49,763 bases of DNA, from NCBI GenBank assembly GCA_902812505.1, contig CADDZQ010000004.1, positions 1 to 49,763 on the forward strand. Direction: 5' to 3'. Positions 4,272 through 11,827 of this stretch are shown here, piece by piece; position 1 is the stretch's first letter, and every line of letters starts with the position of its first letter. The position numbers and the translations under genes are program-made. This DNA is from an archaeon (lineage in GTDB: Archaea; Thermoproteota; Thermoprotei_A; Marsarchaeales; Marsarchaeaceae). The notes beneath the pieces are model-generated. The model did not search any database. It was not told where the DNA came from and was given only the letters and a program-made list of their open reading frames with translations.

Positions 4272-5213
4272 TTAGCGTAGTGTTAGCTGACGGTTTGCTT
4301 TAACGCTTCTTAGTACTGCTTCAGCCACGCATACGGCTGCGGCGTAACCCACGGCATCCACTATGAATCTAGCCTCCACTGGGGGGGCTACCTTCTCAGT
4401 TGATACCGCAAATATTGTGTCGCCGTCTGTTGTGAGGTGGGCTGGCCTAACACTCATCGCTAACCCATCGTGCGCGAGCTGCGCCACCTTGATAAGCTCC
4501 TCATGTGTTAGGCGGGCGTTGGTGGCCACTACGCCGATTGTAGTTGAGCGTAAGCCACGTCCTAAGTATTCTTCCACGTGTTCCTCGAAGAGGGCGTATC
4601 CCCCCGCATCGAGCCTGGAGCCAGCTACGAAATCTCCGGTCTTATAGTCAAAGATGTTTCCCACGGAGTTTGTGACCATTAGCGCCCCCACCCGTATACC
4701 GTATGGGAGCTCGAGGCTTGATGATCCTAGGCCACCCTTTGATGCGTGACTCATCCCCCTGAACTTACCCACAGTGGCACCCCTACCAGCCCCCACGCTT
4801 CCCTCCTCAAAGCTTCCGTCACCAGCATTGAGGCAGGCCTCATATCCAAGCTTCACATAGTCAGCCTTCGAGGTGTCGGCGTACTCTAAATCGTAGATGT
4901 TAGCACCAACTATGCCTGGAAGCTTCCCCGCTCCCTGCTTTGCAGCCATACCCTTCTCAACCAGAAAGCTTCTTATACCGACGGCGCAGTCGAAGCCGAA
5001 CACGTCGCCACCCGTGAGGAAGACGGCGTGTTTTCGTATGAATGTCTTGGCGACGCCTATGGAGTCCGTATCATAGGTTCCCGGCCACCCACCTCTAGCC
5101 TCATAGGCCACTGGGAAATCCGCGTCGAAGAGTATAACACTCACACCCGTCTGGGCGTCCTCACTGTGGGCGTTACCCACCCTTATGTTCCCTACGGAGG
5201 TTATCTGACCCAT
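4272..5213 (-). CDS. P1-family peptidase (DmpA/BapA-like aminopeptidase)
   Basis: About 313 residues, the length expected for the S58 (DmpA) family, self-processing Ntn-like hydrolases that act on D-amino-acid amides and beta-peptides. Visible motifs: HSEDAQTGVSVILFD near the N-terminus, FLTGGDVFGFDCAVGIRSFL, EGSVGAGRGATVGKFRGMSH, and KGGLGSSSLELPYGIRVGALMVTN, where the family's processing/catalytic serine is expected (GSSS, about residue 170). Two starts are in frame: GTG at 5219 and ATG at 5213. ATG is preferred because a minus-strand TATA box (attaataaac, 5232-5241) lies about 25 nt upstream. It is divergent from the proline iminopeptidase gene, with a shared promoter region. Confidence 0.92.
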   Translation of the reverse strand: MGQITSVGNIRVGNAHSEDAQTGVSVILFDADFPVAYEARGGWPGTYDTDSIGVAKTFIRKHAVFLTGGDVFGFDCAVGIRSFLVEKGMAAKQGAGKLPGIVGANIYDLEYADTSKADYVKLGYEACLNAGDGSFEEGSVGAGRGATVGKFRGMSHASKGGLGSSSLELPYGIRVGALMVTNSVGNIFDYKTGDFVAGSRLDAGGYALFEEHVEEYLGRGLRSTTIGVVATNARLTHEELIKVAQLAHDGLAMSVRPAHLTTDGDTIFAVSTEKVAPPVEARFIVDAVGYAAAVCVAEAVLRSVKANRQLTLR

Positions 5214-5231
5214 AAACACAATACTTTCAAC

Positions 5232-5250
5232 ATTAATAAACTTTTTATGG
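5232..5250. promoter_or_regulatory. Back-to-back divergent TATA boxes for P1 peptidase and proline iminopeptidase genes
   Basis: On the plus strand ctttttatgg (5241-5250) is centred about 26 nt before the ATG at 5271. On the minus strand gtttattaat (forward attaataaac, 5232-5241) is centred about 25 nt before the ATG at 5213. Both spacings fit leaderless archaeal transcription, and the two boxes touch each other. This suggests joint control of the two peptidase genes. Confidence 0.55.
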
Positions 5251-5270: not shown

Positions 5271-6152
5271 ATGACTCGCTTCAGAGAGGGGTTCGTCGAC
5301 GTGAATAGAGTGAGACTCTACTATAGGGTCGCGGGGGAGGGGGCCCCCACGAAGCTAATATGTCTTCATGGTGGGCCTGGTGGCTCATGCGATTATCTTT
5401 CACCCCTACTAAAGCTTTCTGAGCGAAGCGGGGTGGAGGTTTTACTCTATGACCAGTTCGGATGCGGCAGGTCTTCGGACCCCCCCAACGACTCATGCTA
5501 CACTGTGGAGTATGGGGTTGAAGAAGTTGAAGGCATCAGGCGGTCTCTATACGGCGACGAGAAGATTTTCCTACTCGGCCACTCCTACGGAGGCCTGCTC
5601 GCAATTGCATACGCTCTAAAGTATCAGCGGAACCTGAGGGGACTAATAGTGTCGAGCGGACTCTCAAGCGTCCCCCTCACGGTCAAGGAGATGAGGCGGC
5701 TTATTAATGAGTTGCCAGAGCAGACGAGGCGTGTAATCGAGAAGTACGAGGCAACTGGGGAATTCACACACCCAGAGTACCTTAGGGCTGTCGATGATTT
5801 CTACAGGAAGCATCTGCTTCGATTACCAGAAATGCCCCCTGACGTCGCCAAGACTATGGAATACTTACAGAAGAGGAGGGTATACAGCATAATGAACGGT
5901 CCGAACGAGTTCACGATTACGGGGACAATCCATGATTGGGATCAAACGAGTAGGCTTGGAGAGATCAAAGTGCCCACGCTCATAACCGTTGGTAAATATG
6001 ATGAGGTTACCCCCACAGTTGCGGAGGTCATACATAGGGGTATACCCAACTCGACCCTTAAAGTGTTCGAGAACTCTTCGCACATGGCGATGTGGGAGGA
6101 AACAGAGAAATATCTCGCCACGATAATAGATTTCATCACACATGTGGGATGA
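5271..6152 (+). CDS. pip: Proline iminopeptidase (tricorn-interacting-factor-F1-like alpha/beta hydrolase)
   Basis: A 293-residue S33-family peptidase. Seen in order: oxyanion-hole motif HGGPGGSCDYL (about 34-44), LLYDQFGCGRSSDP (about 58-71), nucleophile elbow GHSYGG (serine about 103), acid residue in VGKYDEVTP (about 238-246) and catalytic histidine in NSSHMAMWEE (about 266). In Thermoplasma and Sulfolobus, F1 releases N-terminal proline and other residues from short peptides, completing proteasome/tricorn breakdown. It is cytosolic. The neighbours on both sides (GGT, P1 peptidase, MFS transporter) fit a peptide-scavenging role. The ATG is 26 nt after a TATA box. Confidence 0.94.
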   Translation: MTRFREGFVDVNRVRLYYRVAGEGAPTKLICLHGGPGGSCDYLSPLLKLSERSGVEVLLYDQFGCGRSSDPPNDSCYTVEYGVEEVEGIRRSLYGDEKIFLLGHSYGGLLAIAYALKYQRNLRGLIVSSGLSSVPLTVKEMRRLINELPEQTRRVIEKYEATGEFTHPEYLRAVDDFYRKHLLRLPEMPPDVAKTMEYLQKRRVYSIMNGPNEFTITGTIHDWDQTSRLGEIKVPTLITVGKYDEVTPTVAEVIHRGIPNSTLKVFENSSHMAMWEETEKYLATIIDFITHVG

Positions 6153-8127: not shown

Positions 8128-8763
8128 ATGTCAACAGTAGGCGAACAAGCACAGGGACAAACAAGCCTGATGGGCCGATTATTCAGAAGAATATCGGCGT
8201 GGTTCGCCAAAATCTCTAGAAAAATAAGGGGGCTGTTCTCTCCTCCAAAGGGTAACCCGCAAAGCGTCGCTGACGCTGCGAGTGATGGGGTAACCCTTGG
8301 CTCAATCATGGAGCACGCTCAAGTGGAGGCTGAAAAGAGTACGACCACACCATCCGACCACTCCACCGACGGTGAGGTAACAAGTAGTGAAGCGTCGAAA
8401 AACGGATATGAGCCACAGGTGCTACTCGGCTCCCTGCAGACCATGATAGCCACGCCACCAGTACCAGTAGAGGCTCCTAGACAGCCTGAAAGTGTGGAGG
8501 TACAAAGCTATAGCGAAGCAGATAGAGATGAAGAGGAATATGTGCCAAAGATAAAACCAAAGCCCTCACCTCCACTCCCCAAGGAGCACAAGGACCTCGT
8601 CAGGAGACTTGTCAGGGCAGGTAAGAGAAAGGAGGCAGCACAGCAACTCGAAGAGTTAGGCTACTTCTTCTCCGAGGTGTCCACAAGAGGCAAATACATA
8701 GTGGTCAAGTATAGGGGTAGAGACGGCTACCTCTACGCTGCGAGGATCAAGTATAAGGCTTAG
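8128..8763 (+). CDS. Protein with disordered middle and small conserved-looking C-terminal domain, function unknown
   Basis: 211 residues in three parts. Residues about 15-45 are a basic amphipathic segment (MGRLFRRISAWFAKISRKIR), perhaps membrane- or RNA-contacting. Residues about 50-155 are rich in Ser, Thr, Pro and Glu and look disordered (for example KIKPKPSPPLPKEH). Residues about 155-211 look folded: a helical hairpin KDLVRRLVRAGKRKEAAQQL and then a beta-rich end (GKYIVVKYRGRDGYLYAARI). I do not recognise the family. A TATA-like tatattaaaa (8111-8120) lies only about 13 nt before the ATG, so an internal start at ATG 8170 cannot be excluded. It converges with copT (5-bp gap). Confidence 0.65.
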   Translation: MSTVGEQAQGQTSLMGRLFRRISAWFAKISRKIRGLFSPPKGNPQSVADAASDGVTLGSIMEHAQVEAEKSTTTPSDHSTDGEVTSSEASKNGYEPQVLLGSLQTMIATPPVPVEAPRQPESVEVQSYSEADRDEEEYVPKIKPKPSPPLPKEHKDLVRRLVRAGKRKEAAQQLEELGYFFSEVSTRGKYIVVKYRGRDGYLYAARIKYKA

Positions 8764-8768
8764 GCCCA

Positions 8769-9299
8769 TCAAACCCCCCTCTTTTTATCCAGCATTTGCT
8801 TTAAGGCTTCAAGACACGTTGTGCAACAGGCGTAGTAGGTCCTTCTACCCCTCTTGTAAATATAAGGCTGCTCTAGTATCTGTTTCCCACACTTATCACA
8901 TATGAAAGGGATGGGTGAGCCAACCTTAGGTCTGTAGGCTTGCACGGCAACCATGTATTCGATGGGTCTACCCACACTCTCGAAAACTCTTTTCAGGTCC
9001 ATTAGACTTGAGGCTCTGAACACGGACAAATAGGTGCCATCCAGCAACTCGTAGGATTCAAGCGTCTCAGGCCTATTTTGAAACCTCGCGAAAACCCTGA
9101 ACCCACCAGTATAGTTTACCTCCACCGTGAACCTAGATATCACGCCCCGCCTAACCAGGGAGTCTATAACCCTCGACACAGTGGAGCGGCTTAAACCCAA
9201 CTCTTCGGCTAGTTTCGCCACCGGTGTGCGCGAGTCCTCATAAAGCCTATTGAGCACTCTGACTTCTATGTCCGAAAGATTCCTAGCAAAATCAATCAT
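8769..9299 (-). CDS. copT: CopT-like metal-responsive regulator (Lrp-type HTH plus TRASH domain)
   Basis: 176 residues. Residues 1-60 form an Lrp/AsnC-type winged helix (LSDIEVRVLNRLYEDS, then VAKLAEELGLSRSTVSRVID). The middle is a short sensor-like region. Residues about 132-170 form a TRASH metal-binding knuckle: FICDKCGKQ, about 20 residues, then YACCTTCLEAL (the C-x19-22-C-x3-C spacing). In Sulfolobus solfataricus CopT binds the copMA promoter and is released by copper. The same gene order (copT divergent from copM-copA) is present here, so copper control is a well-supported inference. The shared palindromic promoter at 9324-9352 is the likely operator. Confidence 0.9.
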   Translation of the reverse strand: MIDFARNLSDIEVRVLNRLYEDSRTPVAKLAEELGLSRSTVSRVIDSLVRRGVISRFTVEVNYTGGFRVFARFQNRPETLESYELLDGTYLSVFRASSLMDLKRVFESVGRPIEYMVAVQAYRPKVGSPIPFICDKCGKQILEQPYIYKRGRRTYYACCTTCLEALKQMLDKKRGV

Positions 9300-9323
9300 T
9301 TTAAAGCACTAATATATACAGTT

Positions 9324-9352
9324 TGACGCAAATAAGTCTTATTTCGATGTCA
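9324..9352. promoter_or_regulatory. Palindrome containing both TATA boxes of the divergent copT and copM-copA promoters
   Basis: The sequence holds AAATAAG (9330-9336), a single T, then CTTATTT (9338-9344), a perfect 7-bp inverted repeat. It is flanked by TGAC (9324-9327) and GTCA (9349-9352). The plus-strand box CTTATTT is centred 26 nt before the copM ATG (9367). The minus-strand box is centred about 26 nt before position 9307, giving copT an 8-nt leader. A regulator bound here would cover both promoters. The visible part is the palindrome and spacing; binding by CopT is inference. Confidence 0.7.
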
Positions 9353-9366
9353 GTTGTATATTATTT

Positions 9367-9528
9367 ATGATTGACCCAGTCTGCGGCATGCGTGTAGAGA
9401 AGGGTGACGTCAAGTCACTCTATAAGGGTAAGACCTACTACTTCTGTAGTAAGGGTTGCAAGACAAGGTTTGACCGTGACCCCGAGAAATACCTTAAAGG
9501 TGGACCTGAGGGGATGAATGATCCCTAG
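9367..9528 (+). CDS. copM: CopM-like small TRASH/YHS-domain copper protein
   Basis: A 53-residue protein. It has the YHS/TRASH signature DPVCGM at residues 3-8, then KTYYFCSKGCKTRF (about 22-35), giving C6-x20-C27-x3-C31, and ends with DPEKYL. Proteins of this size and motif sit between the regulator and CopA in Sulfolobus and are thought to be metallochaperones or copper sensors. The ATG is 26 nt after its TATA box (leaderless). The last 11 bases overlap the start of copA, so the two are translated from one transcript. Confidence 0.9.
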   Translation: MIDPVCGMRVEKGDVKSLYKGKTYYFCSKGCKTRFDRDPEKYLKGGPEGMNDP

Positions 9529-11827
9529 ATTAGAATCAAACACGAGTGGGGAGGATTCTGAGGAACTCAAAATAGTGGGTATGCACTGCGCCACGTGCAC
9601 CACGAGCGTGGAGCGAGCGCTACGCAAAGCTGGAGGCGTGATCAACGTCTCAGTCAGCTTGGCTTCGGAGGAGGCAATTGTGGAGCACAGGGGTACCCCC
9701 ACCTCCAAACTTGTAAGCGCGGTGAGGACAGCTGGATACGATGTTGTAACCTATATTGCGGCGTTCAAAGTCAAAACCATCAGCGCGGAGGAGCTCGGTA
9801 GGCTTGCCGCTAAGCTGGAGGCTCAGAAGGGTGTTGTTAGGGTTGAGGCGGACTATACTTCTGACACGTTAAGGGTGGAATACAACCCCCTCACAACTGG
9901 TCCAGACAAGCTCGAAGAGACACTCCGCGGCTGGGGTTTAGGCCCGACTCGGATAAGCGAGCAGCTTTCCGCGCCAGACGTGGTAGCAGCTTCTAGAACG
10001 CTTAGAGCATACTCTCTCAGGCTACTTGTGGGCGCTGTTTTCACATCGATTACACTGCTGGCCGCATACACAAACCAGCCACTACTCGCACTCATAGCGG
10101 CATCACCCGTACAGTTCTATAGTGGGTGGGTTTTCCATTTAGGTGCGCTTCGGGCTCTCCGTAACCGTGTCGGTAACATGGACACCCTAGTCTCACTCGC
10201 CTCTAACATCTCCTACTTCTATAGCTTGTATATGGCTGTTTTTAGGGATTCGGCTGGGTTCGTGGATGTGGCAGCACTCCTTGTAACATTCGTGCTCATC
10301 GGCAAAACGGTTGAGGTGTACACGAAGACGAGGATGCTTTCAGAGTTCGCATCCCCACTGCCCCAAGTGGCGGTGGTAATAAGGAACGGTAAGGAGCTCA
10401 AAGTGGACACCCGCACAATCGGTGTTGGAGACCTCGTGGTACTCAGCGCGGGTGACAAGGTCGTGGTTGACGGTGTCGTTGAGGATGGGCACGCCGAAGT
10501 GGACGAGTCGGTGATAACAGGTGAGTCGAAACCCGTGGTCAAAAGGAAGGGTGACCCAGTATTCTCTGGTTCCACCGTGATATCTGGGAGCCTAAGGGTG
10601 TATTCGACTAGGGTTGGCTCGAAGACGTATTTCGAACAGGTCACTGAGGCTGTGAGGAGGGCTCAGGCTACTAAGCTACCAGTTCAGAGGTTGGTGGACA
10701 GGGTTTCAGCTATCTTCACACCACTAATCCTAGCGGCCTCGGCTGCGACATTCTCAATCTGGCTGCTGGTGTTCCACTCATCGTTGGGCGCAGCGCTCAC
10801 CTACAGTGTAGCAGTGCTTGCGGCCGCCTGCCCCTGCGCCCTCGGTCTAGCTGCACCCATGGCCGTGAGCGTTGGCATTAGAAGGGCGTCCAAGATGGGT
10901 TTAGTGGTTAAGCGAGGTGAGGCATTCGAAGCGGCCCATGAAACAAGTGTAGTTGTTTTCGACAAGACGGGCACACTAACCGAGGACACATTTGAAGTTG
11001 AATCATACACTGAGCATATCAAAGGAGCGCTCGAGCTAGCCGCCTCCGTCGAGTCGAGGAGCCAGCACCCATACGCTCGAGCGCTCGTGAGCGCATTCGG
11101 CAAACGCTTCGAGCCAAGCGAATTCGACTCCTTCACAGGTGAAGGGGTAATGGGTGTGGTTGACGGCAAAACAATACTGGTTGGCTCGAAGAGATTCATT
11201 AAAAACAACATAGCCAAGCACGAGAACATGGATTTCCAAGGCGACGGAGCCTCCGTATATGTAGCGGTCAACGGGGAACTAGCTGCGATGGTTAAATTCA
11301 AACAGAAAATAAGACGCGAAGCAGCCAGTGTAGTCGAAGAACTCAAGGGGATGGGTATCCGCGTCGTAATGGTGACAGGCGACTCGGAGGCTGAGGCTAA
11401 AGCGGTCGCCGGCGAGCTTGGGATAAGCGAAGTGTACGCCGAGGTTAAACCCGAAGAGAAGGCCGAAATCGTCTCGAAACTCAGAGAAAAGGGTGTTGTG
11501 ATGTTCGTGGGGGACGGTGTGAACGACGCACAAGCGCTCACAAGCGCGGACGTAGGTGTAGCCATGGGTACCGAGGTTGCTAAGGCCGCGGCGGATATCG
11601 TGTTAAGCTCCAGCGACCTGAGAGGCATCATCCGACTAATCGAAGAATCTAGGAGGGTGTACGCGAAAATCAGGCAGAATTTGGCTTGGGCTTTTGGTTA
11701 CAACACCACCATACTGCCAGTGGCCGCAGGAATACTCGCACCCTACGGTCTAAGCCTCCAGCCGGAGTGGGCGGCGCTCGCAATGTCCTTAAGCAGCGTG
11801 CTTGTAACACTGTGGTCGAGGGTCTGA
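9518..11827 (+). CDS. copA: Cu+-exporting P1B-type ATPase
   Basis: 769 residues. The N-terminal HMA domain has GMHCATC (Cys about 28 and 31). A second ferredoxin-like domain (about 85-150) lacks the CxxC. The P1B signs follow: TGES, membrane metal site AACPCALGLAAP (CPC), DKTGTLT (phosphorylated Asp), SRSQHPYARAL (HP motif) and GDGVNDAQAL. Helix 7 keeps the Cu+-type N-x6-YN-x4-P. Helix 8 matches P-x6-M-x2-SS-x5-N except that the final Asn is Trp, and the chain ends four residues later. It exports Cu+ from the cytoplasm using ATP. It overlaps copM by 11 nt. Confidence 0.96.
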   Translation: MIPRLESNTSGEDSEELKIVGMHCATCTTSVERALRKAGGVINVSVSLASEEAIVEHRGTPTSKLVSAVRTAGYDVVTYIAAFKVKTISAEELGRLAAKLEAQKGVVRVEADYTSDTLRVEYNPLTTGPDKLEETLRGWGLGPTRISEQLSAPDVVAASRTLRAYSLRLLVGAVFTSITLLAAYTNQPLLALIAASPVQFYSGWVFHLGALRALRNRVGNMDTLVSLASNISYFYSLYMAVFRDSAGFVDVAALLVTFVLIGKTVEVYTKTRMLSEFASPLPQVAVVIRNGKELKVDTRTIGVGDLVVLSAGDKVVVDGVVEDGHAEVDESVITGESKPVVKRKGDPVFSGSTVISGSLRVYSTRVGSKTYFEQVTEAVRRAQATKLPVQRLVDRVSAIFTPLILAASAATFSIWLLVFHSSLGAALTYSVAVLAAACPCALGLAAPMAVSVGIRRASKMGLVVKRGEAFEAAHETSVVVFDKTGTLTEDTFEVESYTEHIKGALELAASVESRSQHPYARALVSAFGKRFEPSEFDSFTGEGVMGVVDGKTILVGSKRFIKNNIAKHENMDFQGDGASVYVAVNGELAAMVKFKQKIRREAASVVEELKGMGIRVVMVTGDSEAEAKAVAGELGISEVYAEVKPEEKAEIVSKLREKGVVMFVGDGVNDAQALTSADVGVAMGTEVAKAAADIVLSSSDLRGIIRLIEESRRVYAKIRQNLAWAFGYNTTILPVAAGILAPYGLSLQPEWAALAMSLSSVLVTLWSRV

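Follow-up and report, generated by a model that had tools for sequence, protein, structure and literature searches.

One palindromic core in the gap between copT and copM-copA of a Marsarchaeota group 2 archaeon is predicted to hold the TATA boxes of both divergent transcripts

Divergent genes for a copper pump and its regulator are known from Pyrococcus furiosus, in which CopR, a TRASH-domain protein of the Lrp type, recognizes a semi-palindromic motif that adjoins the BRE on its upstream side and is flanked by two separate TBP/TFB sites; from this position, CopR stimulates copA while it occludes and represses the promoter of copR (PMC7830388). The CopR of T. onnurineus has been reported as a repressor, as compared to the activator of P. 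furiosus, and the sign of regulation by CopT/CopR proteins is therefore unsettled between species. CopT of S. solfataricus is said to bind both sides of the copMA TATA-BRE, reportedly in work by Ettema and co-workers from 2006. As far as a quotation in PMC3595675 goes, the CopT of S. solfataricus P2 is reported as a repressor. Divergent transcription from one symmetric core has been described at the BRE-TATA-BRE promoters of P. furiosus, where it often yields antisense RNA (PMC6640164).

The window considered here is a stretch of 49,763 nucleotides (contig CADDZQ010000004.1 of assembly GCA_902812505.1, forward strand) from a hot-spring archaeon of Marsarchaeota group 2 with a genome of 1.43 Mb (G000). 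In this window, a gap of 67 bp (9300-9366) separates copT (8769-9299, reverse strand, ATG at 9299) from the divergent genes copM and copA (ATG of copM at 9367). CopT has 176 residues, with an N-terminal winged HTH, an Lrp-like middle domain and a C-terminal archaeal TRASH domain. Both HTH_24 and Arc_trans_TRASH of Pfam matched above cutoff, and the cysteines of the motif CDxCG...CC..C (C134, C137, C158, C159, and C162) were invariant in 18 and 23 homologues. The top structural and PDB profile matches were predominantly Lrp/AsnC proteins, at the level of domains only, the pTM of the model being 0.37; by alignment and predicted fold, CopT is an Lrp/AsnC-like protein with a TRASH tail. This fold, together with the conserved cysteines and the linkage to cop genes, places it in the CopT/CopR family. 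No relatives of CopT were found in viral contigs. Downstream of copT, an open reading frame of 211 residues (8128-8763) gave no Pfam match at 0.01; a stretch with similar C-terminal coding is placed after copT also in G002 (stretch L003), which belongs to another genus of this family, and this suggests a conserved neighbour without assigned function.

The gene copM (9367-9528, forward strand) encodes a YHS/TRASH metallochaperone of 53 residues (MIDPVCGM...; Pfam YHS, 2.9e-20), and copA (9518-11827, forward strand) a copper-translocating P-type ATPase (TIGR01511, 512.7 bits with respect to a cutoff of 397; HMA and E1-E2_ATPase in Pfam). The family searches thus bore out the names CopT, CopM, and CopA that a preliminary description of this DNA had proposed. 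The same set, that is CopT with HTH and TRASH domains, CopM, and CopA, makes up copTMA (copRTA) of S. solfataricus and cop1 and cop2 of S. metallicus, and the 11-nt overlap of copM and copA is also that of S. metallicus locus cop2; in S. metallicus, however, copT1 is described as tandem, whereas copT is divergent here (PMC3595675). Regulator and pump are likewise divergent in the copR/copA pair of P. furiosus (PMC7830388).

A cop locus of this form was present in three genomes only, and in all of them copT is divergent to copM-copA. Besides the window genome, these are a congener, Candidatus Marsarchaeota G2 archaeon ECH_B_1 (G001), which is the closest named genome and whose CopT is 99% identical to that of the window, and G002, whose CopT is 44% identical; two of the three loci are 97% identical across 8.4 kb. 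Two other genomes of the family, G004 (stretch L166, 4751-5389) and G005 (L168), carry a longer CopT-like gene of 212 residues with HTH, Lrp-like, and TRASH domains, divergent from a copM and beside a YHS-containing CopA, in a different cop cluster that has no strong shared promoter. In the copT of Metallosphaera yellowstonensis (L022, G039), an in-frame TAG lies in the HTH region and possibly reflects a pseudogene or a sequencing error.

Between the start codons of copT and copM, the sequence AAATAAG-T-CTTATTT forms an inverted repeat of two 7-nt arms and a 1-nt spacer (9330-9344, both strands, centre 9337), which is exact, as the preliminary description had it. In the genome of G000, no second copy was found, either exact or with one mismatch; G001 has the exact palindrome at its cop locus and one unrelated near-copy elsewhere (stretch L126), in surroundings without clear divergent genes. 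When the gap was shuffled under a Markov model, an arm of at least 7 appeared in 1.3% of cases for a spacer of 1, in 3.3% for spacers of 0-2, and in 9% for spacers of 0-10, and the bare palindrome, taken alone, is only mildly improbable. The gaps of G000 and G001 differ at 6 of 67 bp and none of these differences falls in the palindrome, but the chance of such an outcome is about 0.2, and the conservation of the 15 bp between these two genomes is not significant alone. The outer arms TGAC (9324-9327) and GTCA (9349-9352), to which the preliminary description had also pointed, are present. However, they stand at unequal distances from the inner palindrome (2 nt and 4 nt), and the one on the copM side, TGAC as read on the copT strand, is changed to TGGC in G001; we therefore rejected them as a conserved feature.

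The literature on copper in Marsarchaeota contained, as far as we found, no description of the promoters of this lineage. A lineage-specific model was built. The data were the window and 0.8 Mb of sequence belonging to the congener, and 859 kb were scanned for sites. An unsupervised motif search in 242 upstream regions arrived at the same motif, cgaAA.GcTTATAt, from three starting points. A held-out BRE/TATA model, for which 458 upstream regions were taken from the congener and all cop and window sequence was left out, gave the consensus.AA.GcTTATAt and reached at least 10 bits at 0.023% of positions. Its motif starts peak 37-34 nt before the start codon, in a distribution that is blurred by the mechanical calling of the background gene starts; the position of this peak fits leaderless transcripts, as expected. 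For the position equivalent to the C of CTTATTT, the mode lies at -32 to -29, and a shoulder extends beyond it on the upstream side.

On each strand of the copT/copM gap, the best match to the held-out model is exactly the palindrome. The predicted BRE/TATA of copM-copA (TAAGTCTTATTT, 9333-9344, forward strand) scored 11.2 bits, with the motif start at -34 and the C of CTTATTT at -29 from the ATG of copM, that is at the lineage mode and the leaderless distance. The predicted BRE/TATA of copT (TAAGACTTATTT, 9330-9341, reverse strand) scored 12.2 bits, with the motif start at -42 and the corresponding C at -37 from the ATG of copT. This is about 8 nt beyond the leaderless spacing and implies a leader of about 8 nt for copT. 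No other copT-facing site in the gap exceeded 8.2 bits, and the next best ones are too near the start codon. In G001, the best matches of the two strands again coincide at the palindrome, with the same scores of 11.2 and 12.2 bits. In G002, they coincide on the core TAAGTCTTA (11.4 and 10.3 bits), which is placed exactly 30 nt from the start codon of copM (GTG), as in G000, and 41 nt from copT as compared to 38 nt in G000. The G002 core is less symmetric, its arm keeping 4 uninterrupted pairs, yet it is equally promoter-like. In three species, therefore, the best matches of both strands occupy one place at proper distances from both genes, as is expected of a bidirectional core promoter, and by sequence the shared core is conserved in two genera. 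The earlier proposal that each arm serves as the TATA box of one gene is thus borne out in silico, and two TATA boxes in one palindrome appear well supported as a reading of the sequence.

As in the BRE-TATA-BRE promoters of P. furiosus, one symmetric core here presents BRE and TATA elements to both sides (PMC6640164). The axis of symmetry of those promoters, however, runs through one TTTAAA TATA box; their starts are 49-50 bp apart, and firing in two directions often yields antisense RNA (PMC6640164). The axis of the cop core falls on the BRE/TATA junction, with a TATA box on either side of it, and the predicted starts, each leading into a gene, are about 60 bp from each other. The strand offset is +3 at the cop site, as compared to -4 to -6 for the P. 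furiosus type, which sets it outside that type. Archaeal TATA regions that are symmetric and fire both ways are known from P. furiosus; the variant predicted here, centred on the junction and serving two genes, is new, if modest. Among the cop gaps of Sulfolobaceae, Thermococcales, and Thermoplasmata that we examined, none has a comparable palindrome at a shared-TATA position. The divergent gaps of Sulfolobaceae among them, of about 100-140 bp as against 67 bp here, have no shared palindromic promoter.

The symmetry of the palindrome can be traced to the promoter motif itself. In this lineage, the core promoter is near self-complementary at the BRE/TATA junction (AA.GcTT), and for this reason two-way promoters arise easily. 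In fact, when all sites scoring 8 bits or more in the 859 kb were paired across strands, an accumulation appeared at offsets of +2 to +4 (222 pairs), which include the offset of the cop site. When sites were drawn from the model, 34% had a reverse partner of at least 7 bits; the observed rates were 25% inside genes, 20% at tandem promoters, and 33% at divergent promoters. Two-way promoter sites are common in stretches L102-L146 and in the window, also within genes. Of 38 divergent gaps with lengths of 20-160 bp, 7 have best matches of both strands that coincide at the cop-type offset, each with at least 7 bits. An example with the same geometry as the cop palindrome is found in the window itself, at 5234-5248 (both strands, in the ATAAACTTTTTAT region), where the two strands score 10.6 and 12.1 bits and the motifs begin at -34 and -32, at the leaderless distance on both sides; it lies between the genes of a probable P1/DmpA-type peptidase (reverse strand, ATG at 5213) and a proline iminopeptidase (forward strand, ATG at 5271), is conserved in G001, and has no copT gene next to it. 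We therefore rejected the idea that a shared promoter is specific to copper. By the score of the weaker strand, the cop site ranks 4-5 (tied fourth) of 708 two-way sites in the 859 kb. Among the 13 strongest two-way sites, which were examined for neighbouring genes, only the cop site and the peptidase pair have close gene starts on both sides, copM being below the length cutoff of that gene scan and placed by hand. The architecture is uncommon at the strength of the cop site, but it is specific neither to copper nor to CopT. The switch that had been called unusually economical is indeed among the most symmetric two-way promoters found, as one member of a class.

A candidate for the contact of CopT lies beside the palindrome. 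The element CAAACTG (9319-9325, reverse strand; CAGTTTG on the forward strand) immediately precedes the copM BRE and falls within the interval from the copT TATA box to the copT start, at +12 from the centre; G002 has CAAATTG at the same offset (p of about 0.02 by shuffling), and an element at this offset is present by sequence also in G001. On these grounds, it is a weak candidate for a CopT contact. The P. furiosus CopR motif TTNNCAWWWTGNNAA, which there lies between separate TBP/TFB sites, is not significantly matched in the fused arrangement found here: the best matches in the gaps of G000, G001, and G002 were 7/11, 8/11, and 9/11, and none of these beats shuffled sequences. In the Thermococcales controls, four of five divergent gaps gave 9-11/11 and the fifth 8/11.

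We consider it probable that this locus has a fused bidirectional core promoter with mutually exclusive use of its two directions, on which CopT probably acts from adjacent DNA. Two opposed BRE/TATA units would be fused at their upstream ends, each TATA box covering the BRE of the other. TBP and TFB would assemble either toward copM-copA or toward copT, and simultaneous assembly of both initiation complexes appears unlikely because of this overlap. Transcription would be expected to begin near 9307 for copT and, for copM-copA, on the copM ATG (about 9367) or beside it. CopT, with its copper-sensing TRASH domain, would most likely act from the DNA beside the palindrome, the flank on the copT side around 9319-9325 being the best candidate. 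By analogy with P. furiosus CopR, it would, when bound there, limit copT and permit or stimulate copMA at high copper.

In the preliminary description, one CopT dimer bound to the palindrome would instead block both promoters. Taken as an operator in this way, the palindrome would hold the dimer with outer contacts at TGAC and GTCA, and TBP would be kept from both promoters until copper releases the dimer. The exact symmetry, the single copy in the genome, the rank among the five most symmetric two-way sites in 859 kb, and the adjoining gene for an HTH regulator of dimeric type would suit such a dimer, as would the repressor role reported for the S. solfataricus P2 protein in the quotation mentioned above. 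Yet the partner rates in simulated sites and within genes show that such symmetry is expected from the motif, and the architecture recurs at a non-copper pair, that of the peptidases. In G002, the arm has lost pairing while the promoter scores stay high, which favours the promoter reading, and the outer arms are uneven, one of them broken in G001. Moreover, the cop gaps of Sulfolobaceae and Thermococcales that we examined lack a comparable palindrome at a promoter-proximal TATA position, and the motif of P. furiosus CopR adjoins the BRE (PMC7830388). Since two opposed BRE/TATA units of an intrinsically near-palindromic core promoter account for the symmetry, the claim of a single CopT dimer as the switch was not borne out, and we regard this mechanism as unlikely. 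Still less probable, in our opinion, is that the palindrome is the promoter of copM-copA only, the copT-facing match being a by-product and copT being transcribed from another site or by leakage of the antisense type. About a third of model-drawn sites carry a reverse partner that nothing requires, the spacing of -37 on the copT side is off the main mode, and two-way firing from one TATA in P. furiosus often gives non-functional antisense RNA (PMC6640164). Against this, the copT-facing match is the stronger of the two in G000 and G001 and still high in G002, the gap offers copT no credible second site, and regulation of the cluster requires that copT be expressed.

The fused bidirectional promoter thus remains the reading that we prefer. 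The perfect symmetry of the 7-1-7 repeat exceeds what two promoters need, and this excess, at rank 4-5 of 708, leaves room for an additional constraint. It is conceivable, though rather unlikely, that switching resides in the fused promoter as such, with pump and sensor alternating and an off-centre CopT setting the direction of the polymerase according to copper. If this is true, the locus would work as a directional see-saw and not as a repressor that turns genes on and off. A concrete promoter consensus is now available for Marsarchaeota group 2, an uncultured archaeal lineage. The cop locus may serve as a compact natural template for the control of two genes with overlapping TBP/TFB sites by a TRASH-domain regulator, an arrangement that is not directly covered by the P. 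furiosus model, in which CopR occludes one promoter and stimulates the other from a position between them.
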